64,000 nucleotides of DNA from Asaia siamensis (GTDB taxonomy: Bacteria > Pseudomonadota > Alphaproteobacteria > Acetobacterales > Acetobacteraceae): positions 234,269 to 298,268 of the forward strand of contig NZ_BMCH01000004.1 in the NCBI RefSeq assembly GCF_014635085.1, in the 5' to 3' direction. This document shows positions 48,673-61,833 of this stretch, in pieces. Position numbers and translations under genes: made by a program. Each line of letters begins with the position of its first letter. Within the stretch, counting starts at the first letter, position 1. The notes under the pieces are model-generated. The model was not told the DNA's origin. It saw only the letters and a program-made list of their open reading frames with translations, and made no database searches.

Positions 48673-49728
48673 ATGCTGTCCTGCATTGGATATGGCGCAC
48701 AGAAAGCGTCAGACCGTCTCGCCCCCTTCAAGTTCGATCGTCGCGACACGGGGCCTGAAGATGTGCGTATCGACATTCTCTATTGCGGTGTCTGCCACTC
48801 CGACATTCATCAGGCGCGCAATGAGTGGCACAACACTGTCTATCCCTGCGTTCCCGGTCATGAAATTGTCGGCCGCGTAAGCGAAGTTGGCGCATCGGTC
48901 ACCAAGTTCAAGGTGGGTGACCTTGCTGGCGTTGGCTGCATGGTCGATTCCTGTCGCGAATGCCCGAGCTGCAAGGAAGGTCTGGAGCAGTATTGCGAAA
49001 ACGGCTTCGTCGGCACCTATAACGGTGAAGACCGTCAGGGTCGTGGCAACACCTATGGTGGCTACTCCAAGGCTATCGTGGTTGATCAGGCTTTTGTGCT
49101 GAAAGTCCCCGAGAACCTCGATCTCGCGGCTGTCGCGCCGCTGCTTTGCGCAGGCATCACAACCTACTCGCCGCTGCGTCACTGGAAGGTTGGCCCCGGT
49201 CAGCGTGTTGGTGTGGTGGGTCTGGGTGGCCTCGGCCATATGGCTGTTAAGTTCGCCCGCGCCTTCGGTGCCCAGGTGGTGCTTTTCACCACTTCACAGA
49301 GCAAGGTGGAAGACGGTCTTCGTCTCGGTGCCCATGAAGTCGTGCTGTCGAAAGACCCGGAAGCCATGGCGAAGGAGACTGCCAGCTTCGATTTCATTCT
49401 GGATGCGGTTGCGGCCGACCATGACATCAATGCCTATCTCAACCTGCTGAAGCGTGAAGGCACACTGGTTCAGGTTGGTGCTCCGGAAAAGCCGCTGCCT
49501 GTTTCTGTGTTCAGCCTCATCATGAAGCGTCGCAACTTCGCCGGCTCGCTGATTGGCGGTATCGCCGAAACGCAGGAAATGCTCGATTTCTGCGGTGAGC
49601 ATGGCATCACGTCAGATATCGAGATGATCGCCATGGACGAGATCGAGACGGCATATTCACGTATGATGAAATCCGACGTGAAATACCGCTTCGTAATCGA
49701 TATGGCGACGCTCGAAAACGCCGCCTGA
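48673..49728 (+). CDS. Zinc-dependent NAD(P) alcohol dehydrogenase (YahK/cinnamyl-type)
   Basis: 351 residues. Catalytic zinc site C-G-V-C-H-S-D-I-H and G-H-E-I-V-G-R-V, structural zinc cysteines in D-S-C-R-E-C-P-S-C-K-E-G-L-E-Q-Y-C, and the nucleotide-binding G-L-G-G-L-G-H. Reversible reduction of aldehydes, usually with NADPH in this clade. Monocistronic. A role with the neighbouring tetrose locus (erythrose/erythrulose reduction) is possible but unsupported. Confidence 0.93.
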   Translation: MLSCIGYGAQKASDRLAPFKFDRRDTGPEDVRIDILYCGVCHSDIHQARNEWHNTVYPCVPGHEIVGRVSEVGASVTKFKVGDLAGVGCMVDSCRECPSCKEGLEQYCENGFVGTYNGEDRQGRGNTYGGYSKAIVVDQAFVLKVPENLDLAAVAPLLCAGITTYSPLRHWKVGPGQRVGVVGLGGLGHMAVKFARAFGAQVVLFTTSQSKVEDGLRLGAHEVVLSKDPEAMAKETASFDFILDAVAADHDINAYLNLLKREGTLVQVGAPEKPLPVSVFSLIMKRRNFAGSLIGGIAETQEMLDFCGEHGITSDIEMIAMDEIETAYSRMMKSDVKYRFVIDMATLENAA

Positions 49729-49775: not shown

Positions 49776-50591
49776 TCAGCAGATCTCGATCGGAATACCG
49801 GCCGTTTCAAGCTCGGACAATGTCTCAGGCTTGATCTGGTTGTCGGTCAGGATGCGTGAGAATTCCGAGAGGGAGGTGAGGCGATGCAGCCCGCCCTGAC
49901 GGAATTTCGTGCTGTCGACCAGCAAAACGCTGTCATCGGCAATGGCCATGAGCGCGCGCTTTACCTTCACCACGTCCTGGTCATTCTGGAATGCCGTGTC
50001 ACCCGAAATCACCGAGGTGGACATGAACATGACATTGGCCCGCAGCGATCGCGCTGCCTGCTCGCAGACAAGCCCGAAAAACGCGTTGCGTGAATTGCTG
50101 TAATCTCCACCAAGGCAGATGATCTTGATGCCGGGGAAGGGCGCAAGAGCCTGTACTACACCAACCGCATTGGTGATGACGGTAAGAGGCGCTCTGGCAG
50201 GCAGAAGCGGCAGCATTTCAGCAACGGTCGTCGAATCATCAAGAATGATGACCTGACCGGGTTCGATCATCGAGACGGCACGCTGGATGATCGTCTTTTT
50301 CAGATTGGCTGCACGGTGCTGACGATAGGCAACGTTCTTTTCCGTACGTGCGCGGTTCTTGAGAGTGATGCCGCCATGAATCTTGTCAATCAGCCCCTGG
50401 CTGGCCAGCGCATGTGCATCGCGATGGATCGTCATACGGCTTACATCGAAATGTTCAGCCAGAAATTCGATGCTCGCATTGCCCTGCTCAAAGAGCAGAT
50501 CAAGAATTTGCTGCTGACGTGATTTGAGATTCTGACGTTTGATCCCTGAAAAACCATCCAGGGAGGGCGCTGACTTGATGTCATCACTCAT
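49776..50591 (-). CDS. DeoR/GlpR-family regulator, divergent from the tetritol operon
   Basis: 271 residues. HTH R-Q-Q-Q-I-L-D-L-L-F-E-Q-G-N-A-S-I-E-F-L-A-E-H-F in short pieces, followed by V-S-R-M-T-I-H-R-D and the G-G-I-T-L turn. The sensor domain shows D-D-S-T-T, T-N-A-V-G and C-L-G-G-D-Y-S typical of sugar-phosphate-binding DeoR proteins. It is related to, but clearly different from, the second DeoR gene of the locus. It probably represses the kinase-dehydrogenase transcript until a tetrose phosphate appears. Confidence 0.88.
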   Translation of the reverse strand: MSDDIKSAPSLDGFSGIKRQNLKSRQQQILDLLFEQGNASIEFLAEHFDVSRMTIHRDAHALASQGLIDKIHGGITLKNRARTEKNVAYRQHRAANLKKTIIQRAVSMIEPGQVIILDDSTTVAEMLPLLPARAPLTVITNAVGVVQALAPFPGIKIICLGGDYSNSRNAFFGLVCEQAARSLRANVMFMSTSVISGDTAFQNDQDVVKVKRALMAIADDSVLLVDSTKFRQGGLHRLTSLSEFSRILTDNQIKPETLSELETAGIPIEIC

Positions 50592-50873
50592 GGTCTGAAA
50601 CTGCCTTTGACAGATATGCTTGCTTTTGTTGGGACCAAGCGTAGCAGAAAATAAGATAACAAAAATATCACAAAGATATCATCCTCACAAGCCGTCCTTA
50701 TCAAGGTTTTGTCATCAGGCGTAAGCACTCGGGCTTACCTTATGCAGGATGCTCTTCTCCGCGGAACTGCCCATATATATCATATATAGCACCAATTTGT
50801 GATTTTGTTAACACAACAACCAACTTTAGAACATCAAGCACCGATAGCGAGCCGAAAGAGCGAAGAGGCGATC
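50592..50873. promoter_or_regulatory. AT-rich divergent control region with DeoR-like operator motifs
   Basis: Two related motifs lie between the DeoR gene and the kinase: ATAACAAAAATATCACAAAG at 50656-50675 and, inverted, TTTGTGATTTTGTTA at 50796-50810 (complement TAACAAAATCACAAA). A third relative precedes the isomerase gene. The stretch CATATATATCATATATAG near 50771-50788 is promoter-like. Confidence 0.55.
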
Positions 50874-52415
50874 ATGGGTGCAGGTTATGTCTTGGGCGTT
50901 GATTGCGGCTCGACCACTGCGAAATCTGTCGTCTTCACACCTGGCGGGCGCATTGTCGGTATAGGGCAGGCGCGTGTTCCCCAAGTGACGAGCACACCTC
51001 GGGAGGTTGAGCGCGATATGAAGGCGACGTGGCTCCTCGTTGCCGAAACCATCCGTGATGCGCTGGCTGATGCTGGCTGCACGGGGGCAGATATCGCAGG
51101 CATAGGCATGACCGCCCATGGCGATGGTGTTTTCCTGCTCGACCACCACGCCGAACCACTTGGCAGAGGTATCATGTCCCTCGATAGCCGCGCCTTTGGT
51201 GTGCACGAGGGGTGGAAAGAGGCGGGGCTTCTCGACCACCTCCTGCCCGTTGCCGGCCAGAGGCCCTATCCTTACTCAGCAACCACGTTACTGGCCTGGA
51301 TAAAGCGTTTCGAGCCTGAGCGTTACGGGGCCATCGGCACCGTCTTTTTCGCCAAGGACTGGCTTCGCTTCTGCCTGACAGGCCGGATTGCGACCGATCT
51401 GACCGAAGCGAGCACGGCGTTCACCGATCTTCATACGCAGAGTTACAGTCAGAAAATCCTTCAGACGCTCGATCTGCAGGAAATTGCGAGCGCGCTGCCG
51501 CCAATGCTGAACTCCTGCGACCGGGCAGGCCATGTCAGCGCTGAAGCGGCACTCATGACAGGTCTGCTGCAGGGCACACCTGTCTCCGCAGGGCTGCATG
51601 ATGTCATCGCCGCCTCTGTCGGGTTGGGTCAGGTGCGGGCGGGCGACATGACCGTGACAGCCGGAACGTTCTCGATCAATGAGGTGCTGCGTGATCGACC
51701 GGTGACTGGTGCAGAGTGGGCCTGTCGCGCCGGTTATCGAAAAGGCCTGTGGAATTGCATGGCAATTTCACCGGCCTCTGCAAGCAATCTCGAGTGGATG
51801 GCGCGTTATATCGCGCCCGACGACCCCGACGCGGCTGCCCATCTCATTGAGGCCTCCATAGCAAGGTTCGAGCAGGGGCGTGTTGAACGGCAGATCCCGC
51901 TTTATCATCCGTATCTGTTCGGCTCGCCTTTCGAGACACCGGCCACGGCCTCTTTTCTGGGGCTGCAATCCTGGCATGACCGCGCCGATCTGTTTCAGGC
52001 GATGATAGAGGGCACGATCTTCAACCACCGTCATCATGTCGAAGATCTGATGCGCACGGGGCCGGTCAACAGCATCGGCGTTTCAGGCGGCGGAAGTCGC
52101 CGCCCTGAGATAGGCCAGCTCTTTGCAGATATCTTCGGCAGACCTGTCATGACGTCGCCGGTGCGTGAGGCAGGGGCTCTCGGGGCCGCACTGACGGCCA
52201 GCGTTGCCTGTGGCAATCATCCAACACTCGAGGACGCCGTTGCCGGGCTCGATATGCAGCATACACGCTTCGCCCCCGACCCGGCGCTCTCACGTTATTA
52301 CGACGCCATATACACGCGTTACACGACGCTGGCTCAGATTCTCGAGCCCTTCTGGCCATCCCTGCACAGCGCACCTGTCCCTCATGAACAGTCTTTGCGC
52401 GCCGCCACGGCCTGA
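50874..52415 (+). CDS. FGGY-family carbohydrate kinase, erythritol kinase-like (EryA-like)
   Basis: ATG 50874 with AGAGG upstream gives 513 residues; ATG 50799 is upstream in frame but lies in the operator. N-terminal G-V-D-C-G-S-T-T-A-K-S binds ATP phosphate, M-T-A-H-G-D-G lies near the sugar site, the catalytic Asp is probably Asp243 in G-L-H-D-V-I-A-A-S, and G-G-G-S-R-R-P closes the second domain. FGGY kinases phosphorylate polyols and ketoses. The next genes (GlpD-like dehydrogenase, TIM-like and RpiB-like isomerases) are the EryB/EryH/EryI set of Brucella, which points to erythritol or another tetritol, giving erythritol 4-phosphate. Xylulose or glycerol are less likely. Confidence 0.75.
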   Translation: MGAGYVLGVDCGSTTAKSVVFTPGGRIVGIGQARVPQVTSTPREVERDMKATWLLVAETIRDALADAGCTGADIAGIGMTAHGDGVFLLDHHAEPLGRGIMSLDSRAFGVHEGWKEAGLLDHLLPVAGQRPYPYSATTLLAWIKRFEPERYGAIGTVFFAKDWLRFCLTGRIATDLTEASTAFTDLHTQSYSQKILQTLDLQEIASALPPMLNSCDRAGHVSAEAALMTGLLQGTPVSAGLHDVIAASVGLGQVRAGDMTVTAGTFSINEVLRDRPVTGAEWACRAGYRKGLWNCMAISPASASNLEWMARYIAPDDPDAAAHLIEASIARFEQGRVERQIPLYHPYLFGSPFETPATASFLGLQSWHDRADLFQAMIEGTIFNHRHHVEDLMRTGPVNSIGVSGGGSRRPEIGQLFADIFGRPVMTSPVREAGALGAALTASVACGNHPTLEDAVAGLDMQHTRFAPDPALSRYYDAIYTRYTTLAQILEPFWPSLHSAPVPHEQSLRAATA

Positions 52416-52469
52416 GGCCTGCGCGGTCGCTAACCCGTTTCAGAACCGCTTCACAAATCGAGATACCCG

Positions 52470-54161
52470 ATGACCTACTCCGCCAAACAAATCGACTCTG
52501 CCCATTTCGATGTCACGATCATCGGGGCAGGCATCAATGGTGTGGGTCTCTTTCGTGAACTGGCGCTTCAGGGGCTCAATGTTCTCCTGATCGACAAGGG
52601 TGATATCTGCACTGGTGCTTCAGCGGCCCCATCCAGACTGATCCATGGCGGCATCAAATATCTCGAGACCGGCGAGTTTCGTCTGGTTGCGCAGTCGACC
52701 CTCGAGCGCAATCTGCTGCTGCGCAACGCACCGCACGTGGTCAAGCCGCTTCCGACAATCATACCGATCCATTCCTGGTTTGGCGGGATTCTGCCTTCGA
52801 TCAAGCGGTTCTGCGGTCTAAAGACAAAGCTTGCCGATCGGGGAGTCGCGATTACCGAAGTCGGCATGCAGATCTACGATTATCTCGGCCGCCGCGCACG
52901 CGTGATGCCTCGCCACACCTTTTCTTTCGGGCACTCTGTCAGGCGCGATTGGCCGCATATGACACGAAAGGTCATCGCGACCGGACGATATTATGATGCT
53001 GCCATCACCCAACCTGAAAGACTGGGTTTCGAATGCGTCGAGGATGCGCTTCGCCTGTCTTTGGGCTGCGCAGTGAGAACCTATTCGAGAGTGACGTCAT
53101 TCCATGAGGGGGCCGTGACCCTGCGTGATGATATCACCGGTCAGGTTGAGCATGTCCACACCGATCTGGTCGTCAATGCCGGTGGAGCATGGATCGATCA
53201 GGTCAATGCCGGGATTGGCCTTTCCACACGCTATATTGGTGGCACGAAAGGATCGCATCTCGTTATGCGCCATCCCGAATTGCTGCGCGAACTCAACGGG
53301 CAGATGGTCTATTTCGGCACGGCAGACGGTCGCATCTGCCTTGCCTATCCGTTCATGAACCATGTTCTGATCGGCTCGACCGATATCCCATGCAAGGACG
53401 CCGACAAGGCAATCTGTTCACAGGAAGAACAGAGCTACATGCTGGCCATGCTTCAGGAGCTGTTTCCCGGTTTCCATTTCAGCGACAGCGATGTCGTCTA
53501 TCGCTATTGCGGCGTAAGACCGCTTCCTGCCACGCGCACGGACGACCCTGGCGAGATCAGCAGAGACCACATCATCCACACCGATTATGCCGGGACGACC
53601 CCAGTCCTGTCTCTGGTTGGCGGTAAGTGGACCACATTCCGTGGCCTCGCGGAAGAAACTGCCGATAAGGTGCTGGGGCTTCTCCACCGTAAACGGACGC
53701 GCTCTTCGCGGGAGAGGGCGATCGGGGGCGGGGTCGGTTACCCGGGGCAGAAATCACGAAACGCCTATATCCGGCACCTTGCCGAGATGCAGGATCTGTC
53801 ATTGGCACGTGCGACCCTGTTATTCGAGCGCTATGGCACTACTGCAGAGCGCGTTGCTGCTTTCTGTGCACGCACACCCGATCAAGAACTCACGTCTCTT
53901 CCCGGTTATACGAGGAACGAGATCCAGTATCTCACGAAGGAAGAACTCGTGCGCAAAGCTGCCGATCTTCTTTTCCGGCGCACACCGATCGCGCTCTCGG
54001 GCAAGATCAGCCGTGCTGTGGTCGAAGAGGTTTGCGCGATCATGGCGCCAGCCCTTGGCTGGACAGAGGCCATTTGCGCATCCGAAATCGACAGCGTCTG
54101 GAAAATTGCGGTTGAGCAACATGGTGTTTCTGACAGCACTGCAGGCAACGCGGCAAGCTGA
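52470..54161 (+). CDS. GlpD-like FAD dehydrogenase, erythritol-4-phosphate dehydrogenase-like (EryB-like)
   Basis: 563 residues. FAD site I-G-A-G-I-N-G-V-G-L-F-R-E-L-A, then D-K-G-D-I-C-T-G-A-S, S-R-L-I-H-G-G-I-K-Y-L-E and S-W-F-G-G-I, and a substrate-region G-V-R-P-L-P. GlpD proteins oxidise sn-glycerol 3-phosphate at the membrane and feed quinone. No glycerol kinase, GlpF or other glycerol gene is nearby, while tetrose-phosphate isomerases follow, so oxidation of erythritol 4-phosphate is the more likely role. Starts 54 bp after the kinase gene. Confidence 0.75.
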   Translation: MTYSAKQIDSAHFDVTIIGAGINGVGLFRELALQGLNVLLIDKGDICTGASAAPSRLIHGGIKYLETGEFRLVAQSTLERNLLLRNAPHVVKPLPTIIPIHSWFGGILPSIKRFCGLKTKLADRGVAITEVGMQIYDYLGRRARVMPRHTFSFGHSVRRDWPHMTRKVIATGRYYDAAITQPERLGFECVEDALRLSLGCAVRTYSRVTSFHEGAVTLRDDITGQVEHVHTDLVVNAGGAWIDQVNAGIGLSTRYIGGTKGSHLVMRHPELLRELNGQMVYFGTADGRICLAYPFMNHVLIGSTDIPCKDADKAICSQEEQSYMLAMLQELFPGFHFSDSDVVYRYCGVRPLPATRTDDPGEISRDHIIHTDYAGTTPVLSLVGGKWTTFRGLAEETADKVLGLLHRKRTRSSRERAIGGGVGYPGQKSRNAYIRHLAEMQDLSLARATLLFERYGTTAERVAAFCARTPDQELTSLPGYTRNEIQYLTKEELVRKAADLLFRRTPIALSGKISRAVVEEVCAIMAPALGWTEAICASEIDSVWKIAVEQHGVSDSTAGNAAS

Positions 54162-54301
54162 AACGCGGGCGCGAGAGTCCTGACAAAGCAGGATAATGCG
54201 CAGACCAGTCACAAGGGCCTCAGCGCTTGTAAGGCGCTGGGGGTGGGCTACACGACGGTGCTCGGCAAGGTCTGCTGATCACAGGATTTAGTGATCGCCC
54301 G

Positions 54302-54341
54302 ATAACAAAATCGCACAAAATCCAGAACTTTGCTTTTGTTC
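54302..54341. promoter_or_regulatory. DeoR-like operator and internal promoter region before the isomerase gene
   Basis: ATAACAAAATCGCACAAAA at 54302-54320 and, inverted, TTTGCTTTTGTTC at 54329-54341, related to the two motifs in front of the kinase gene. The 330-bp gap 54162-54490 is otherwise without a gene and probably carries the promoter of the isomerase-regulator-transporter transcript. Confidence 0.55.
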
Positions 54342-54490
54342 GGTTTTTCTGAAAAACCAAGCTTCTCCTAGCGCTAAATCATATCAATGTGAACGCTATA
54401 GGTGATATTTTATCTACCCTAATGTTATTTAAATCCCTATCACAACATCAGGACGTTACACTTATCGTCACTGCGTCACAGAGAGAGAAC

Positions 54491-55258
54491 ATGATGCCCT
54501 TAAAGTCGCTCTGGATCGGAACAAGCTGGAAGATGAACAAGGGGCCAGCCGCCGCCCGGGAAGCGGCCGAGCAGATCGCGTCCATAGCCGTACCCTCCTC
54601 CGTGACGCCATTCGTCATTCCGCCTTTCACATCGCTCGAAATGGTTGCGTCCCGCCTCGCAGATACGCGCTGGAGCGTGGGTGCGCAGAACATGCACTGG
54701 GAAGACGAGGGCGCTTGGACCGGGGAAATCTCGCCCCATATGGTACGCGAATGCGGTGCCGATATTGTCGAACTCGGCCATTCAGAGCGTCGCGAGCATT
54801 TCGGCGAGTCAGACATCACCGTCAATCTCAAGGTCAAGGCCGCCATACGCTACGCTTTGCGCCCGCTCATCTGCATCGGCGACAGCGCTGAGGAATATGA
54901 GTTCGGCGTGACGCATGAGACACTTGCCCGTCAGACCAAGATGGCCCTCCATGGGCTGACGTCGGATCAGATTGAAACTGTTCTGCTGGCCTATGAACCC
55001 GTATGGGCCATTGGCGCCAAGGGAAGGGCCGCCGAGCCCGCTTTCGTCGGAACCGCGCATACACGCCTGCGCCACGTCCTGGCCGACTTGGTCGGGGAAA
55101 CGACTGCGCGCCGTGTGCCTATCCTCTATGGCGGCAGCGTCTCGCTTGAAAACGCAGCACGCTATACAGCGCTGGCCGATGTCGACGGCGTGTTCATCGG
55201 TCGTTCCGCCTGGGATCCTTCGGGTCTTGCCGCCATCATCCAGTCGGTTGTGTCATGA
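54491..55258 (+). CDS. tpiA: TIM-family isomerase, erythrulose-1-phosphate isomerase-like (EryH/LerI-like)
   Basis: 255 residues. The triose-phosphate isomerase fold is complete, with Lys14 in G-T-S-W-K-M-N-K, His97 in E-L-G-H-S-E-R-R, Glu169 in L-A-Y-E-P-V-W-A-I-G, and Y-G-G-S-V. The start G-T-S-W-K replaces the usual G-N-W-K of glycolytic enzymes, as in the second TpiA of ery/ler loci by my recollection. It probably isomerises L-erythrulose 1-phosphate to D-erythrulose 4-phosphate. Its stop overlaps the second DeoR gene. Confidence 0.78.
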   Translation: MMPLKSLWIGTSWKMNKGPAAAREAAEQIASIAVPSSVTPFVIPPFTSLEMVASRLADTRWSVGAQNMHWEDEGAWTGEISPHMVRECGADIVELGHSERREHFGESDITVNLKVKAAIRYALRPLICIGDSAEEYEFGVTHETLARQTKMALHGLTSDQIETVLLAYEPVWAIGAKGRAAEPAFVGTAHTRLRHVLADLVGETTARRVPILYGGSVSLENAARYTALADVDGVFIGRSAWDPSGLAAIIQSVVS

Positions 55259-56082
55259 GCGGCGCGACCGGCGTAGAGAGCAAGGCCGTCTCGGCACGGC
55301 GTCGCGAAATTCTCGATTACGTGCTCGAAAACGGGGGTGCCCAGATCGAGGAGCTCGTCGATCGTTTCTCGACCAGTCGCATGACGATCCATCGCGATCT
55401 GCACGCGCTGTCCGAGCAGGGACTGGTACGCAAGGTTCATGGTGGCGTGACCATGCTGGCCAGCGGCGTGATGGAAACAAGCGTCGTCCATCGCCTGCGT
55501 CGTGCCTCTCGTGAGAAACAGGCCATTGCGCGTGTCGCGACGAGCTTCATCAAGGCGGGCGATATCATCGCCCTCGATGATTCCACCACGTCACGCATTC
55601 TGTCGGAAAACCTTCCCTCGGGTATGCCTCTGACAGTGCTGACCAACAGCATGGGTATTGCTACCCAGCTTGCAGGCATGCGCGATATCAGTCTGATCTG
55701 CCTCGGTGGTAAATATCACCCGCGGTTCGACGCGTTTCTCGGCATTCTCTGCGAACAGGGCACGAAGTCGCTTCGGGCAAACACGCTGTTCATGTCTGTC
55801 TCTGCGGTACGCGATCTCGGTGCCTATCATCAGGAGCAGGAGATCGTGAAGTGCAAGATGGCACTCATGGAAATTGTCGACCGTCGTATCCTGATGATCG
55901 ATAGTCAGAAATTTGACGTCACCGCGTTGAACCGTCTGGCCAATCTCTCTGATTTTGACGTTGTGATTACCGATTCAGGCGTCTCTGAAAGTCAGAAGAA
56001 CCGCATGCTCGATGCGGGCATCAATCTGCATGTCGCTCCACTTGACGACACGCCGCCCGCCTCGCGCACCGTCCCTCTCTAG
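55255..56082 (+). CDS. Second DeoR/GlpR-family regulator, inside the tetrose operon
   Basis: 275 residues, ATGA overlap with the isomerase. HTH R-R-R-E-I-L-D-Y-V-L-E-N-G-G-A-Q and T-S-R-M-T-I-H-R-D-L, then K-V-H-G-G-V-T; sensor domain D-D-S-T-T-S-R, T-N-S-M-G and C-L-G-G-K. Likely controls its own operon in response to a phosphorylated tetrose or tetrulose, separately from the divergent DeoR protein. Confidence 0.88.
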   Translation: MSGATGVESKAVSARRREILDYVLENGGAQIEELVDRFSTSRMTIHRDLHALSEQGLVRKVHGGVTMLASGVMETSVVHRLRRASREKQAIARVATSFIKAGDIIALDDSTTSRILSENLPSGMPLTVLTNSMGIATQLAGMRDISLICLGGKYHPRFDAFLGILCEQGTKSLRANTLFMSVSAVRDLGAYHQEQEIVKCKMALMEIVDRRILMIDSQKFDVTALNRLANLSDFDVVITDSGVSESQKNRMLDAGINLHVAPLDDTPPASRTVPL

Positions 56083-56105
56083 AACACCATAAAAGGAAGA
56101 CGATC

Positions 56106-56573
56106 ATGAAAATTGCAGTTGGTGGCGATAGCGCCGGTGAGGGTCTGGCCCAGCAGATCGTGGCGCATCTCAAGGCAAAAGGGCTCGATGCAGTCGACCT
56201 CTCACGCCCTGCAGATGACAAGAGCGAGCTCTACTCCGAGCTGAGCGAACGCGTCGGCCTTGCTATTCTTTCCGGAGAGTATGAGCGCGGCATTCTGTGC
56301 TGCGGCACGGGCATCGGGGTTGCGATTTCGGCCAACAAGATCCCCGGCATCCGCGCAGCACAGGTGCACGACAGCTACTCTGCGGAACGTGCAGCGCTGT
56401 CCAACAACGCCCATATCATCACACTGGGTGCGCGCGTTGTCGGTGCTGAACTCGCCAAGACCATTGTTGATTCGTTCCTTTCCAAAAAATTCGACCCGGC
56501 CAGCGCCTCGGCGCGCAATGTCGATGGTATCGATGCGCTCGATCGTAAATATTCACCAAATTCCTGCAAATAA
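56106..56573 (+). CDS. rpiB: RpiB-family isomerase, probable erythrulose-4-phosphate isomerase (EryI-like)
   Basis: 155 residues. C-G-T-G-I-G-V-A-I-S-A-N-K and H-D-S-Y-S-A-E-R are RpiB motifs with the catalytic Cys. The first loop reads G-G-D-S-A-G-E-G-L, whereas ribose-5-phosphate RpiB has D-H-A-G or D-H-V-G, so the substrate-binding His is Ser. The same D-S-A-G-E form is, to my recollection, found in tetrose-phosphate members (EryI/DerI). Predicted to form D-erythrose 4-phosphate. Confidence 0.82.
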   Translation: MKIAVGGDSAGEGLAQQIVAHLKAKGLDAVDLSRPADDKSELYSELSERVGLAILSGEYERGILCCGTGIGVAISANKIPGIRAAQVHDSYSAERAALSNNAHIITLGARVVGAELAKTIVDSFLSKKFDPASASARNVDGIDALDRKYSPNSCK

Positions 56574-56603
56574 TGGGTCAACGCGACCATAAGGTCTGAT
56601 CTC

Positions 56604-57530
56604 ATGAAAAAAGCACTGCTCGCCACCGCAACCCTGCTCTTCGCCCCGCTCGCCGCCCATGCGGCGGCGGACAATGCGCCGATGCGGTTTGTCATGATAC
56701 CGAAAGCCGTTCATCCTTGGTTCGACAAGGCCAATAACGGCGCGCAAGCCGCCGCGGCCCTGCTGAGCAAGTCCACGGGACGCACCATCACGGTTGAATA
56801 TCGCGCGCCGCAAACCGCCGATGTCTCGACCCAGAACGACATCATCGAACGCGCCATCGCGACACATCCCGATGGTCTGATCCTCGACCTTCTCGACGAA
56901 AAGGGAAACCGGTCGACCATGCAGGAAGCGGTCGATGAGAAGATTCCGATGACTGTTTTCGACTCCCTCCCACCTGAGGGCATGGACATCACGGCGGTCG
57001 GTGCGGATTTTTGCGAGCAGGGCACGCTAGCGGCGGAGCGGCTCGCTAGGCTGATCAATCACAAGGGTGAGGTTGCAGTGATGATGGGCGTGCCCACTGC
57101 GCCCAACCATGCCCTTCGCGCGCGCTGCGAGCTGAAGGTGTTTGCCAAATATCCCGATATCAAGGTCGTGGCGACGGGTATCGATAACGACAGCATCGAA
57201 ACCGCGCAAAAACAGGCCTCTGCCATCATGCAGGCCCATCCCAACCTTGAAGGCTGGGTAGCCTGTGATGCAGCAGGCCCTGTGGGCATCGGTCAGGCCA
57301 TTCGCGAAAGCGACAAGATCGGCAAGGTTCAGGAGGTCGGTCTGGATAATCTGAACGACATGCTTCAGCTGATCAAGGATGGCGTGGTCGATTCCTCTGC
57401 CTCAAGCCGCCCTGAAATGCAGGGCTACTGGGCCGTTATCGCCGCCTGGCAGAAAGCGCTGGGGCAGCAGACGCCTAAAAACATCGATACAGGCATCGAT
57501 ATCATCACCAAATCAACGCTCTCCAAATAA
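56604..57530 (+). CDS. Sugar ABC transporter periplasmic binding protein
   Basis: 308 residues. Sec signal peptide (L-L-A-T-A-T-L-L-F-A-P-L-A-A-H-A) and the Peripla_BP_4/RbsB-like two-lobe fold (F-V-M-I-P-K-A-V-H-P-W-F, D-G-L-I-L-D-L-L-D, A-C-D-A-A-G-P-V-G). Partner of the following ATPase and permease. Most likely binds a tetritol or tetrulose such as erythritol or L-erythrulose. Confidence 0.88.
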   Translation: MKKALLATATLLFAPLAAHAAADNAPMRFVMIPKAVHPWFDKANNGAQAAAALLSKSTGRTITVEYRAPQTADVSTQNDIIERAIATHPDGLILDLLDEKGNRSTMQEAVDEKIPMTVFDSLPPEGMDITAVGADFCEQGTLAAERLARLINHKGEVAVMMGVPTAPNHALRARCELKVFAKYPDIKVVATGIDNDSIETAQKQASAIMQAHPNLEGWVACDAAGPVGIGQAIRESDKIGKVQEVGLDNLNDMLQLIKDGVVDSSASSRPEMQGYWAVIAAWQKALGQQTPKNIDTGIDIITKSTLSK

Positions 57531-57547
57531 CCGATCGGGAGGGGGCT

Positions 57548-59053
57548 ATGGTCCTTCTCAAGGCTTCGGGCATACGAAAGACCTATCCAGGGGTCGTAGC
57601 CCTCGATCACATTGATCTGACTCTCGAACCCGGCAAGGTGCATATCCTTGCCGGTGAGAACGGCGCAGGGAAATCCACGCTTATCAAGACCCTGTCCGGT
57701 CTGGTCAAACCGGATACTGGCACACTTGTCATTGACGACGCCGATGCACTGCGTGACCAAAAGCTTTTCGTGCGCGTGTCTTATGTGCCCCAGGAACTCA
57801 ATCTCTTTCCCTACCTCACCGTCGCAGAAAACATGTTCATGCCATTTGCCCGCTCAGGCTTCGGCAGGTTCACCGTATCGGAAAAGGCAATGGAGGTGGA
57901 GGCCGCGAAATTCATTGCGCGTTTTGGTATTCACGCACGGCCGGATCAGAAAGTCGCTGAAATCAGTGTCCCCGATCAACAGCTTCTGCAGATTGCCCGC
58001 GCGGCAACCCAGGAAAATTTTGGCGTCATGATTCTCGACGAGCCCACCTCGTCTCTCACGGCCAAGGAGACGGAGCGTCTCTTTCGTATTGTCAATGACC
58101 TGCGCGAACAAGGCGTTGCCATTGTCTTCGTCTCTCACAAGATGGAAGAAATCTTCGCGCTAGGCGATACGGTGACCGTCCTGCGTAACGGTCGCAGCGT
58201 CGGTACTTTCCCGATGGACGGTATGACCGAGGGCGAGCTGATCCGTCTCATGTCCGGCAGTACCGTCAAGCTGGACGAGCAGTTTCAGCCGGCATCCTCT
58301 GCGCGTACCGGCGAAACTATTCTCTCGGTTGAAAATCTGACCGGTCCGGGGTTTGAAGATATCTCGTTCGACCTGAAGCGTGGAGAAATTCTCGGCTTTG
58401 CGGGCTTGGTCGGGGCAGGGCGCTCCGAAATCATGCAGGCCATGTTCGGATTTCGCAAAATCCAGAGCGGCCGCGTCATTCTCGACGGCAAGCCGATTGC
58501 GCCTAACCGACCGGACAGGGCGGTGCAGGCCGGAATGGTGTATCTCTCCGAAGAACGCAAGCATCACGGTATTTTTCCGATGCTGAGCCTGCGCGAAAAT
58601 ATCTCGCTTGCTGTAACAGGAAACATCACTAAAGCCGGGCTGATTTCGCGTTACCGCGAAAACGCACTGGTGAAAGAGATCATCGAGCAGTTCGATGTTC
58701 GCACCTCGTCATCTGCCAAGAAGATCATGTTCCTTTCAGGCGGCAACCAGCAGAAGGCCATTATCGGTCGGGCGATGGCCCGCAGGCCACGTCTGCTAAT
58801 TTTCGACGAGCCTACGAAGGGCATCGATATAGGCACCAAGTTCCAGATCTACCGCATCATGCAGCGCCTAGCCGAAGAGGGCGTGGGGATTATCCTTGTC
58901 TCATCTGAGATGAGCGAGCTGCAGCGCTGCGCTACCCGTATTGTCACGCTCTATTCGGGCCGGATCAACGGCTCATTCGAGCACGAAACAACCGAAATCA
59001 GCACATTGGTCGCCTCGATCATCGGCTCACCGGAGACAAGCCATGTCGCATGA
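57548..59053 (+). CDS. Sugar ABC transporter ATP-binding protein (RbsA/MglA-type, two nucleotide domains)
   Basis: 501 residues with two tandem ABC domains. The first has Walker A G-E-N-G-A-G-K-S-T and Walker B L-D-E-P-T-S-S-L, with a degenerate signature region. The second has the G-A-G-R-S-E loop and signature L-S-G-G-N-Q-Q-K, with F-D-E-P-T-K-G-I-D. This is the single fused ATPase of CUT2 importers. Confidence 0.93.
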   Translation: MVLLKASGIRKTYPGVVALDHIDLTLEPGKVHILAGENGAGKSTLIKTLSGLVKPDTGTLVIDDADALRDQKLFVRVSYVPQELNLFPYLTVAENMFMPFARSGFGRFTVSEKAMEVEAAKFIARFGIHARPDQKVAEISVPDQQLLQIARAATQENFGVMILDEPTSSLTAKETERLFRIVNDLREQGVAIVFVSHKMEEIFALGDTVTVLRNGRSVGTFPMDGMTEGELIRLMSGSTVKLDEQFQPASSARTGETILSVENLTGPGFEDISFDLKRGEILGFAGLVGAGRSEIMQAMFGFRKIQSGRVILDGKPIAPNRPDRAVQAGMVYLSEERKHHGIFPMLSLRENISLAVTGNITKAGLISRYRENALVKEIIEQFDVRTSSSAKKIMFLSGGNQQKAIIGRAMARRPRLLIFDEPTKGIDIGTKFQIYRIMQRLAEEGVGIILVSSEMSELQRCATRIVTLYSGRINGSFEHETTEISTLVASIIGSPETSHVA

Positions 59054-60059
59054 GACGCCTGCGCCGCATGATGGCGCTGCCAGACCACACCAGCCCGATA
59101 TCATGACCCGCTTCAAGGCTGTGGCATCCAATCCCCTCTTTGGGGTGGTGATTGCGCTCGCGGTCATCTTCATTCTTTCCTGCACGCTTTCGTCGAATTT
59201 TTTGACAGCGTTCAACATGAAGATCATCGCGCGCTCGCTCGCCTTCGTCGGCTTGGTCACGATCGGCCAGGCCATTCTGATGATTCTCGGCGAACTCGAT
59301 CTCTCCGTCGGTGCCATAGGCGGTCTCGCTGGCGTTGCGGGTGGCATTTTTATGGTGCAGGCAGGGCTCGATCCCTGGCTCTCTCTTGTGCTCTGCCTCG
59401 CGCTTGGCACGGGATGCGGGCTGCTGAACGGTCTGTTAATCACGAAGCTGAAGTTGCACTCCCTCGTGCTTACCATCGGCATGGCAGGAGTCTATGGCGG
59501 CGCCAATCTGGTGCTTACAAAGGGCGTCGCTATCACGGGTATTCCGAGCAATATCTCGTTTCTGGGGCGCGGGATGCTGTTCGGTCTCCCGGTTCCTTTC
59601 GTGATCCTGCTTCTTTGCCTCGTGATCGTCTCCTTCGTCATGATCCGCACACCGCTAGGCCGTTACGTCTATGCGATTGGCAGCAATAACGCGGCAGCGC
59701 GTATGCTTGGTATTAGGGTAGATGCCATCAGGATCTGTGCCTTCTCTGCTGCTGGCTTTTTTTCGGCGCTGGCAGGCATCCTGATGGTTGCTCGGCTGGG
59801 CACTGCTCAGCCCTCCATCGGTGATACCTGGGTGCTGGCCCCCATCGCAGCTGCCGTCATCGGTGGCGTTGCGACCACCGGCGGTCTGGGGAGCCCGTTT
59901 GGAGCGGTGCTCGGCGCTGTCATCATCGGCATCATTGAGAACGTCATCGTCCTGTTCGGCATCTCGCCTTACTGGCAGTCGATCGTTAGTGGCGGGATCG
60001 TAGTCGCCGCAATCTCCTTCGACTCTCTTGCCCGACGCTATTTCAACCGGGAAGCCTGA
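59043..60059 (+). CDS. Sugar ABC transporter permease (RbsC-type)
   Basis: ATG 59043, inside the end of the ATPase gene (11-bp overlap), gives 338 residues. About nine hydrophobic helices; G-E-L-D-L-S-V-G and the coupling region Y-A-I-G-S-N-N-A-A-A-R-M-L-G-I are typical of RbsC permeases. CUT2 importers usually work with this one permease as a homodimer. Confidence 0.93.
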   Translation: MSHETPAPHDGAARPHQPDIMTRFKAVASNPLFGVVIALAVIFILSCTLSSNFLTAFNMKIIARSLAFVGLVTIGQAILMILGELDLSVGAIGGLAGVAGGIFMVQAGLDPWLSLVLCLALGTGCGLLNGLLITKLKLHSLVLTIGMAGVYGGANLVLTKGVAITGIPSNISFLGRGMLFGLPVPFVILLLCLVIVSFVMIRTPLGRYVYAIGSNNAAARMLGIRVDAIRICAFSAAGFFSALAGILMVARLGTAQPSIGDTWVLAPIAAAVIGGVATTGGLGSPFGAVLGAVIIGIIENVIVLFGISPYWQSIVSGGIVVAAISFDSLARRYFNREA

Positions 60060-60111
60060 CCCACGCTCGTTTTCCACTTCTCCGCTTATCTGTACTGAGG
60101 ACGACTATCCC

Positions 60112-61833
60112 ATGACAAAAATCTGTGGCGACGCCGAGAATTTCGCGACATCCGCCCTTCGCGGCTTTGCGAGCATCTATCGCGATATCGTCCAGCCCGT
60201 GCGGGGCGGTGTGGTCAGAACGACGCCGGGTAAACAGGGCAAGGTTGCTCTTGTCGTGGGCGGCGGTTCTGGTCATTTTCCGGCATTCAACGGCTATGTC
60301 GGCGAGGGCTTTGCCGATGCAGCCGTTGCGGGTGACGTCTTTGCCTCGCCCTCGACCCAGGCCATCCTGCGTATCGCCCGAGAGGCCAATCTTGGCGGCG
60401 GCGTTGTTCTCGGTTACGGCAACTACGCGGGTGATGTCCTCAATTTCAGCATTGCGGCCGAGCGTCTGCGTGCCGAGGGCATCGATACACGCATGATCGC
60501 GACGACAGACGATATTGCGAGCGCCCCGGCCAGCGAGGAGAGCAGGCGGCGCGGCACAGCAGGCGATCTGCCTGTTTTCAAGATTATTGGGGCCGCCGCC
60601 GAAGCCGGGTTGAGCCTTGACGAGGTCGAAGCGGTAGGACGCCGCGCCAATGCGCAGACGCGCTCGTTCGGCGTGGCTTTCGATGGCTGCACCCTGCCAG
60701 GAGAACGCGAAAAGCTGTTTCAGGTGCCGAAGGGGCGTCTGGCGCTCGGGCTTGGGGTGCATGGTGAACAGGGCATCGATGAACTCGATCTGATGCGACC
60801 ATCCGAGCTGGCCGCCATCCTGTGCGACCGCCTGCTGAAGGAAGCCCCCGCCAATGCAGGCTCGCGCATCACGGCCCTGTTGAACGGGCTTGGCAGCACG
60901 AAATACGAAGAGCTTTTCGTGTTGTGGGAGGCCATTATCCCCCATCTCGAAAACGCGGGTTATACGGTCATTGCGCCTCTGGCGGGTGAATATATCACCA
61001 GCCTCGACATGGCTGGTTGTTCGTTGACGCTCACCTGGCTGGACGAGGAGCTGGAGAAATTCTGGCGCGCGCCCGTCAACAGCGCGGCCCTGAAGCGTGA
61101 TGAAATGGCAGGAGATTATCGCGACTCCCTGCCGGTTCTGACCGAAGCGCCTGCGGTTTACATGAAGTCGCTCACTGAAGAGGGCAGAAAGGGCGGGCGT
61201 TGTGTCGCCTCCATGATGATCAGGCTGTCGGCAGCTCTTACGGAGGCTGAACCTGCGCTTGGCCAGATCGATGCCCATGCGGGTGACGGCGATCATGGTC
61301 AGGGCATGGCACGCGGTGCAGCCGCAGCGGCGAAAGCTGCACGCGCCGCAGTCGAGGCCGGGTCCGGTCCGTCGACGGTGCTTGCCGCTGCTGCCGATGC
61401 CTGGGCTGATCGGGCAGGAGGCACATCAGGTGCACTATGGGGGGCAGGGCTATTTGCTTTCAGCACGGCTTTCGATGAGTCCGCCGTGCCGGATGCACAA
61501 AGTCTTTCGCTAGGGCTCCGTCGCGCCATGGAAAAAATCACAGCCCTCGGGAAAGCCAAAAAGGGCGACAAGACCCTTATGGATGCGCTCGAGCCGCTGG
61601 TCGAGGGGTTCGAAGGCGGTCTGAGAAAGGGTTATTCCATTGCAAAAGCCTGGACTGAGGCCGCTGAAGCCTCGACGTTGGCCGCTGAGGCCACGAAGGA
61701 TCTGCTTCCTCGTCTGGGCCGGGCTCGCACTCATGGGGAACGTAGCAAGGGCCACCCCGATGCAGGCGCCATTTCCATGGCGCTTTGCGCCCGTGTGATC
61801 GCGCATGAGCTTTCGGAGCAGGCGGTCAAGTAA
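60112..61833 (+). CDS. DhaK-DhaL fusion kinase, probable erythrulose kinase (LerK/DerK-like)
   Basis: ATG 60112 gives 573 residues, the length of ATP-dependent two-domain dihydroxyacetone kinases. DhaK domain: V-G-G-G-S-G-H-F-P and A-V-A-G-D-V-F-A-S-P, with the covalent substrate-binding His217 in L-G-V-H-G-E. DhaL domain: D-A-H-A-G-D-G-D-H-G (about residues 387-396), the Mg-ATP aspartates, and W-A-D-R-A-G-G-T-S-G-A-L-W. The loop after G-S-G-H is F-P-A-F-N where dihydroxyacetone kinases have E-P-A-H-A, which could widen the pocket. Last gene of the ABC operon, next to tetrose isomerases: it would make L-erythrulose 1-phosphate or D-erythrulose 4-phosphate. Plain dihydroxyacetone kinase remains possible. 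Confidence 0.82.
   Translation: MTKICGDAENFATSALRGFASIYRDIVQPVRGGVVRTTPGKQGKVALVVGGGSGHFPAFNGYVGEGFADAAVAGDVFASPSTQAILRIAREANLGGGVVLGYGNYAGDVLNFSIAAERLRAEGIDTRMIATTDDIASAPASEESRRRGTAGDLPVFKIIGAAAEAGLSLDEVEAVGRRANAQTRSFGVAFDGCTLPGEREKLFQVPKGRLALGLGVHGEQGIDELDLMRPSELAAILCDRLLKEAPANAGSRITALLNGLGSTKYEELFVLWEAIIPHLENAGYTVIAPLAGEYITSLDMAGCSLTLTWLDEELEKFWRAPVNSAALKRDEMAGDYRDSLPVLTEAPAVYMKSLTEEGRKGGRCVASMMIRLSAALTEAEPALGQIDAHAGDGDHGQGMARGAAAAAKAARAAVEAGSGPSTVLAAAADAWADRAGGTSGALWGAGLFAFSTAFDESAVPDAQSLSLGLRRAMEKITALGKAKKGDKTLMDALEPLVEGFEGGLRKGYSIAKAWTEAAEASTLAAEATKDLLPRLGRARTHGERSKGHPDAGAISMALCARVIAHELSEQAVK

Follow-up and report, generated by a model that had tools for sequence, protein, structure and literature searches.

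A probable four-carbon sugar locus occupies positions 49776-61833 of a 64,000-nucleotide stretch of DNA (the window) from Asaia siamensis, whose 3.3 Mb genome (G000) is 100% complete. A DeoR/GlpR-type regulator gene (DeoR1; 49776-50591, minus strand; PF00455, PF08220) is divergent from a gene for an FGGY kinase (50799-52415, plus strand, as are all features that follow; likely start 50874; PF00370/PF02782), whose partner is a GlpD-like flavin adenine dinucleotide-dependent dehydrogenase (52470-54161; PF01266/PF16901). A gap of roughly 329 bp (54162-54490), possibly a second promoter region, separates this pair from a triosephosphate isomerase (TIM)-like gene of putative EryH/LerI type (54389-55258; likely start 54491; PF00121). 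The start of a second regulator gene, DeoR2 (55255-56082; PF00455), overlaps the TIM stop. Next is an RpiB-like isomerase of probable EryI/DerI type (56106-56573; similar to NF051858 and Sinorhizobium meliloti EryI), predicted to convert D-erythrulose 4-phosphate into D-erythrose 4-phosphate. The remaining genes encode a periplasmic binding protein (Peripla_BP_4; 56604-57530; PF13407), an RbsA-type ATP-binding cassette (ABC) transporter ATPase (57548-59053; PF00005 in two stretches), an ABC permease (58941-60059; likely start 59043; PF02653) and a DhaK-DhaL fusion kinase (DAK; 60028-61833; likely start 60112; PF02733/PF02734) that is predicted to act on L-erythrulose. Likely starts were chosen by the onset of family alignments. 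Gene spacing suggests two plus-strand units, one consisting of FGGY and GlpD and the other running from TIM through DeoR2, RpiB, the binding protein, the ATPase and the permease to DAK. Every gene named in the first-pass annotation was found in this interval with Pfam and NCBIfam models, but that list had omitted both DeoR regulators.

The closest named relatives of the locus are in Asaia, and the RpiB-like protein is 96% identical to that of A. platycodi. The same gene order is present in further Asaia, Swaminathania, Gluconobacter morbifer and other Acetobacteraceae, and because it recurs in relatives the arrangement is not due to chance. In several of these loci an extra gene, encoding a protein termed X330, follows GlpD. 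No DeoR1 match was found in the G. morbifer stretch. The DeoR-type regulator encoded in the S. meliloti erythritol locus shares 44% identity with DeoR1 and 40% with DeoR2. An operator common to the FGGY and TIM upstream regions was considered and rejected, as the window has short T-rich matches, whereas none were found in five other genomes; the boundaries of the compared regions were approximate.

The RpiB-like protein is 59% identical to S. meliloti EryI, and its best model is D-erythrulose 4-phosphate isomerase (NF051858; 232.3 bits, just under the cut-off of 240). For the TIM-like protein, identity is 49% with S. meliloti EryH, 46-51% with the EryH clade and 35% with the host's other TIM. 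In a tree in which that other TIM is the sole ordinary TIM row, and A. astilbis and A. prunellae have no row, the TIM-like protein falls in a sister set to the EryH clade (support 94/97), away from the other TIM. Rows in this and the other trees needed a single alignment of about 300 (FGGY, GlpD), 200 (TIM) or 450 (DAK) residues. The S. meliloti labels EryA, EryB, EryC, EryH and EryI were assigned here from gene order and product names, and agree with the Rhizobium johnstonii pRL12 set. Because the RpiB-like and TIM-like proteins are this similar to EryI and EryH, the locus is likely to encode a four-carbon pathway ending at erythrose 4-phosphate, and the EryH/EryI logic proposed in the first-pass annotation is supported by homology and synteny. 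Plasmid and genome neighborhoods with TIM and RpiB were at first read as erythritol loci, but several belong to other pathways. In one Rhizobium run (L019:5078-13771), genes for transketolase, fructose-bisphosphatase, class II aldolase, TIM and RpiB lie near a gene resembling 3-oxo-isoapionate kinase, so that EryH/EryI-type isomerases there serve apparently another pathway.

These genes can be arranged as a four-carbon catabolic cluster in which two entry modules feed a common EryH/EryI-type core, with L-threitol as the kinase-first entry. This is the arrangement that we favor, tentatively and at somewhat less than an even chance. In the first entry, the RbsABC-type importer would take up a tetrulose, most likely L-erythrulose from periplasmic erythritol oxidation, and DAK would convert L-erythrulose to L-erythrulose 1-phosphate. 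In the second, FGGY would phosphorylate a tetritol, and the GlpD-like enzyme would oxidize the carbon next to the phosphate; the best guess for the substrate is L-threitol, which would give L-erythrulose 1-phosphate directly. From this compound the TIM-like protein would form D-erythrulose 4-phosphate, which the RpiB-like protein would convert into D-erythrose 4-phosphate. Gene content, homology groups, synteny and the lack of an EryC match are observed, and from these we infer all substrates and products as well as the importer's cargo.

The periplasmic step presumed in the first-pass annotation is compatible with the host genome, which by homology encodes a two-subunit pyrroloquinoline quinone (PQQ) dehydrogenase that could make L-erythrulose. 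On host contig C9, the gene for the small membrane subunit precedes that for the large PQQ subunit, which we take to be the sldBA layout. Passages of PMC9171043 and PMC11837542 describe oxidation of meso-erythritol to L-erythrulose by acetic acid bacteria, and a PQQ membrane enzyme is cited for this oxidation in PMC11837542. Elsewhere, PMC9171043 names 'l-erythrose' as the product from erythritol, and says that erythritol is not oxidized by the flavoprotein sorbitol dehydrogenase. Because DAK would turn imported L-erythrulose into L-erythrulose 1-phosphate, a cell could live on erythritol with none of EryA, EryB and EryC.

The host has four Dak1 genes. In a 24-row tree, the window DAK belongs to a 19-row clade (support 99/100) with RpiB-adjacent kinases of other Acetobacteraceae (L018, L044); the clade also holds a second host kinase, C4b, and the host kinases on C1 and C3 are outside it. 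Four further kinases near RpiB (L033, L050, L059, L069) have alignments too short for a row. The importer genes (binding protein, ATPase and permease) adjoin DAK in 15 of 15 distinct loci, and adjoin FGGY-GlpD in 12 of the 15 (exceptions L147, L152 and L158); these loci were fetched by way of RpiB or GlpD, and hence are not a free sample. Genome G001 has the importer, DAK, RpiB and EryH, and no GlpD match at E 1e-60. These associations tie the importer to the kinase's substrate, so the importer probably carries that substrate, which is likely to be L-erythrulose. The binding protein met no curated NCBIfam cut-off, and its solved relatives give no pointer to a ligand. Homology and synteny therefore favor the earlier proposal of a tetrulose-type DhaK-DhaL kinase, and add to it an importer of its own.

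Perhaps DAK instead acts on D-erythrulose, or broadly on tetruloses, and forms D-erythrulose 4-phosphate from D-erythrulose, so that only RpiB would be needed downstream. In three loci (L030, L034, L148) DAK adjoins RpiB and the stretch lacks a TIM match, and in Mycobacterium smegmatis, according to part of PMC10733421, EltD and LerK feed both L-erythrulose 1-phosphate and D-erythrulose 4-phosphate. However, the window run includes TIM, and the membrane oxidation of erythritol is described, in the passages cited above, as yielding the L form. We regard this alternative as rather unlikely.

The family-level names of these genes would also fit ordinary use of glycerol or xylulose and of dihydroxyacetone. 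This is very improbable, given the model scores and the host's other FGGY-GlpD and Dak genes. FGGY scores 216.8 bits with the XylB model (cut-off 380.25) and 119.6 with GlpK (cut-off 590.35), and the GlpD-like enzyme scores 280.5 bits with NCBIfam GlpD (cut-off 360). With the glycerone kinase model TIGR02361, the window DAK scores 355.9 bits; the C3 Dak fits this model better, at 499 bits, although it too is below the cut-off of 574.95. Moreover, the host has a separate FGGY gene beside GlpD (C1:578353-580509), and this GlpD groups with EryB, apart from the GlpD of the window.

The Brucella EryA-EryB logic that the first-pass annotation assigned to the FGGY-GlpD pair does not hold. FGGY is 28% identical to S. 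meliloti EryA and is outside the EryA clade in a 35-row tree; the GlpD-like enzyme is 29% identical to EryB and is outside the EryB/GlpD clade in a 34-row tree. Both trees have some long branches and no A. prunellae row, and FGGY of A. platycodi, which is split in the draft, is represented by its longest piece. The signature GGLRYLEYYE is present in all eight EryB/GlpD rows, whereas GG[IL]KYLETGE occurs in 22 rows (20 different) of the window's clade; four rows are outside the pattern. In two Acetobacteraceae genomes (G048, G079) an EryA/EryB pair and an FGGY-GlpD pair are found together in one stretch. On the basis of these identities and separate clades we reject the EryA-EryB assignment, and EryC, which the Brucella logic needs, was not found: a search with S. 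meliloti EryC at E 1e-5 yielded nothing in the host or in two other genomes of its genus. Erythritol, which the first-pass annotation placed at the kinase-first entry, is thus not the obvious substrate there, and a kinase-first route needs either another substrate or a replacement epimerase.

Because EryC was not found, the FGGY-GlpD pair should give L-erythrulose 1-phosphate directly. Oxidation of L-threitol phosphate by a GlpD-type enzyme, with the ordinary sn-glycerol-3-phosphate stereochemistry, yields this compound. Threitols are not expected to be substrates of membrane oxidation, and the GlpD route would give the same compound as DAK, so the two entries would complement each other. The association of the pair with tetrose genes is consistent with such a role. 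Among 150 genomes of the family, GlpD relatives (at least 58%) accompany an EryI-like RpiB (at least 59%) in 10 of 11 genomes, versus 8 of the 139 others, with thresholds that were set after the data were seen and kinship uncorrected. FGGY-GlpD adjoins canonical ery genes in R. johnstonii pRL12, G048 and G079, and in G041 it immediately precedes EryH and RpiB.

Several observations weigh against L-threitol or against parts of the two-entry arrangement. The choice of L-threitol is a best guess that depends on the stereochemistry assumed for the enzyme. Outside Acetobacteraceae, the rows closest to the window protein in the GlpD tree are three rhizobial genes (48-50%); their neighbors encode a zinc dehydrogenase and a ketoacid dehydrogenase complex instead of ery proteins, and these settings favor a substrate other than a four-carbon compound. 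One RpiB-adjacent kinase (L057) groups with the host C1 kinase, and three others (L033, L054, L156) match C1 better. A direct route leaves no function for X330, whose gene comes immediately after GlpD in 7 of 17 distinct FGGY-GlpD loci. Of the host's eight EryC-superfamily proteins, two belong to AP-E, a subgroup whose distribution follows that of the EryI-like RpiB, which makes a substitute epimerase conceivable. X330 or AP-E could therefore rescue erythritol as the FGGY substrate. Finally, a 1968 report listed among the references of PMC4437456 connects, by its title, the use of erythritol by Propionibacterium pentosaceum with L-erythrulose 1-phosphate; phosphorylation of erythritol at its other end is thus a further option.

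The product of EryA and EryB is D-erythrulose 1-phosphate. If FGGY and GlpD make this compound as well, then the TIM step is unreachable without a substitute for EryC. Enzyme names in part of PMC12542623 are consistent with this product, and passages of PMC10733421 report that growth of engineered Escherichia coli through FucA or RhaD products required EryC ahead of LerI/DerI and that strains lacking EryC did not grow, which the authors read to mean that D-erythrulose 1-phosphate needs EryC. At E 1e-5, EryC is matched in 6 of the 150 family genomes. Five matches, at 62-68%, are each within an EryA-EryB-EryC run that has its own transporter, and one is weak, at 24%. When the host's EryC-superfamily proteins were compared with nine S. 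meliloti proteins, the best match to EryC had E 0.007. AP-E proteins occur in 15 of the 150 genomes at E 1e-60, and 13 of these genomes are among the 18 with an EryI-like RpiB.

The X330 protein comprises about 330 residues. In six loci, the order FGGY-GlpD-X330-TIM-DeoR-RpiB parallels eryA-eryB-eryC-eryH-eryI, with X330 at the place of eryC; two of the X330 loci (L013 and L160) are very close relatives. The host X330 gene (L006:5886-6878) lies beside the second DAK gene, C4b, 7.8 kb downstream of the operon. Homologs are found in L013, L017, L145, L151, L153, L154, L160, L175, L177, L182, L186, L196 and L197, and X330 is near a sugar kinase wherever neighbors are named (those in L176, L178, L179, L181 and L183-L185 are not or only partly named). 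X330 is present in 7 of the 11 GlpD-positive genomes versus 10 of 139 others. The host protein has no Pfam match even at E 10, two relatives have none at E 0.1, and the NCBIfam models give none at 1e-20. When three members are combined in a profile, it matches the LsrF aldolase at E 1.1e-5, and 19 of 19 rows share one lysine, which lies in an FLKxxFN-like motif.

One alternative to L-threitol is that FGGY phosphorylates erythritol, that the pair forms D-erythrulose 1-phosphate, and that X330 or AP-E, unrelated or distantly related to EryC, epimerizes it to L-erythrulose 1-phosphate. The position of X330 after GlpD, and at the eryC place in six loci, is suggestive of such a function. Also, two of the genomes with X330 at this place, G060 and G135 (L154 and L153; 99-100% complete), have the full locus, including X330, and no PF01261 protein (xylose isomerase-like, the EryC superfamily) was found in them, so X330 could replace EryC. 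X330 or EryC is present in 9 of the 11 GlpD-positive genomes, and X330, EryC or AP-E in 10, the lone exception being G012 (86% complete); in L018, AP-E sits between TIM and DAK. However, X330 is missing from this place in the operon of the window and in several further Asaia loci, and G008 has neither X330 nor EryC. X330 also adjoins PfkB kinases away from isomerases, and accompanies a distant GlpD-FGGY pair. We know of no epimerase activity for an LsrF-like protein. We regard erythritol as the FGGY substrate as unlikely, although far from negligible. It is similarly doubtful that X330 is a lysine-dependent erythrulose 1-phosphate enzyme, either an epimerase or an aldolase, that replaces EryC in an otherwise unrelated tetritol route. 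If it is, acetic acid bacteria would have a kinase-first path without EryA, EryB or EryC.

Alternately, FGGY and GlpD might act on a pentitol or hexitol, with X330 as an aldolase that cuts the ketose 1-phosphate into dihydroxyacetone phosphate and an aldehyde, and share with the tetrose genes merely an operon. The presence of X330 beside PfkB kinases and with the distant pair, in Agrobacterium, suits an aldolase of wider use: on pAt1D1460, a single run comprises GlpD, FGGY, X330 and the genes of an ABC importer, with no TIM, RpiB or DAK. The match to LsrF, the invariant lysine and the settings of the nearest rhizobial GlpD genes point in the same direction, as does an Fba gene that faces FGGY-GlpD in pRL12. 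In contrast, the Agrobacterium pair is distantly related and on a long branch, X330 does not follow GlpD in 10 of the 17 loci, and GlpD co-occurs with EryI-like RpiB in 10 of 11 genomes. We consider this explanation improbable.

Returning to the arrangement with L-threitol and L-erythrulose entries, its modules appear to be separable in relatives, in line with the two kinase entry modules of the first-pass annotation. TIM, RpiB and DAK occur without FGGY-GlpD in A. astilbis (seen as a stretch only, with split frames) and in two small genomes (G046, G126). G025 has DAK and RpiB at one place and EryABC-EryH at another. In the A. prunellae draft, the FGGY and GlpD frames are broken, the stretch has no importer, and its only DAK is of the C4b type.

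The locus resembles the erythritol loci of S. meliloti, R. leguminosarum and Brucella (eryABCD with eryR-tpiB-rpiB) in that an EryH-type isomerase and a probably EryI-type one are beside a DeoR regulator and an FGGY kinase and a GlpD-like enzyme precede the isomerases. It differs in that FGGY and GlpD are, by tree and identity, not EryA and EryB, EryC was not found, and a DhaK-DhaL kinase is added. Beyond the main group of Acetobacteraceae, the FGGY rows that lie closest are those of the R. johnstonii 3841 pRL12 pair, Sinorhizobium B11 and G041. Unlike the window pair, the pRL12 pair is beside a full eryABC-tpiB-rpiB set, with no DAK in the 30 kb seen, and three other rhizobial genes are nearer to the window GlpD in the tree. 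This second pair (L199:3837-12514) lies within a transporter run divergent from eryABC. No published account of a second kinase pair in rhizobial ery loci was found, and passages of PMC3599248 mention none.

LerK of M. smegmatis is of the DhaK-DhaL type. As in the tetritol pathways of that organism (EltD, LerK, LerI, DerI), which are described in parts of PMC10733421 and PMC12780249, a tetrulose kinase would feed L-erythrulose 1-phosphate and D-erythrulose 4-phosphate isomerases, and routes would merge before D-erythrose 4-phosphate. The likeness is one of gene content and not of sequence comparison: a DhaK-DhaL kinase beside TIM-like and RpiB-like isomerases. Unlike M. smegmatis, the window run at 50799-61833 has no gene for a tetritol dehydrogenase (EltD), oxidation would be periplasmic, and there is an extra kinase-first pair. 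Outside the run, just upstream of DeoR1, a gene at 48673-49728 encodes a zinc alcohol dehydrogenase of the Ahr type, and the loci of A. prunellae, A. astilbis and A. bogorensis have a gene of similar length at this place.

Brucella and rhizobia are known to use erythritol by a kinase-first route (in parts of PMC10733421, PMC12780249 and PMC3599248), and M. smegmatis has routes from several tetritols that meet at erythrulose phosphates by way of a tetrulose kinase (in parts of PMC10733421 and PMC12780249). Thus, of the earlier proposal that two routes merge at erythrulose phosphate, the entry modules are supported, but such merging was already known from M. smegmatis. What may be new is that one locus combines the two kinds of entry; no published description of this was found in searches on kinases of erythrulose and threitol, on erythritol in Asaia, and on L-erythrulose in acetic acid bacteria. 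These bacteria are used for L-erythrulose production (passages of PMC9171043 and PMC11837542); no published description was found of how they consume it again, and the locus provides a candidate importer and kinase for this loss. The FGGY-GlpD pair without EryC is an opening to ask whether L-threitol has a kinase-first pathway of its own, and the locus directs attention to the X330 family, with its possible role in erythrulose phosphate chemistry.

The host X330 gene is part of a further cluster (L006:3177-8881), about 2.9 kb past the end of the window. In addition to X330 and the second DhaK-DhaL kinase, this cluster encodes an SDR protein resembling rhamnose dehydrogenase and a D-erythronate dehydrogenase-like domain fused to an EryC-superfamily domain; it is possibly an acid-sugar pathway. 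Genes for an OprB porin and an MFS transporter are located further on.

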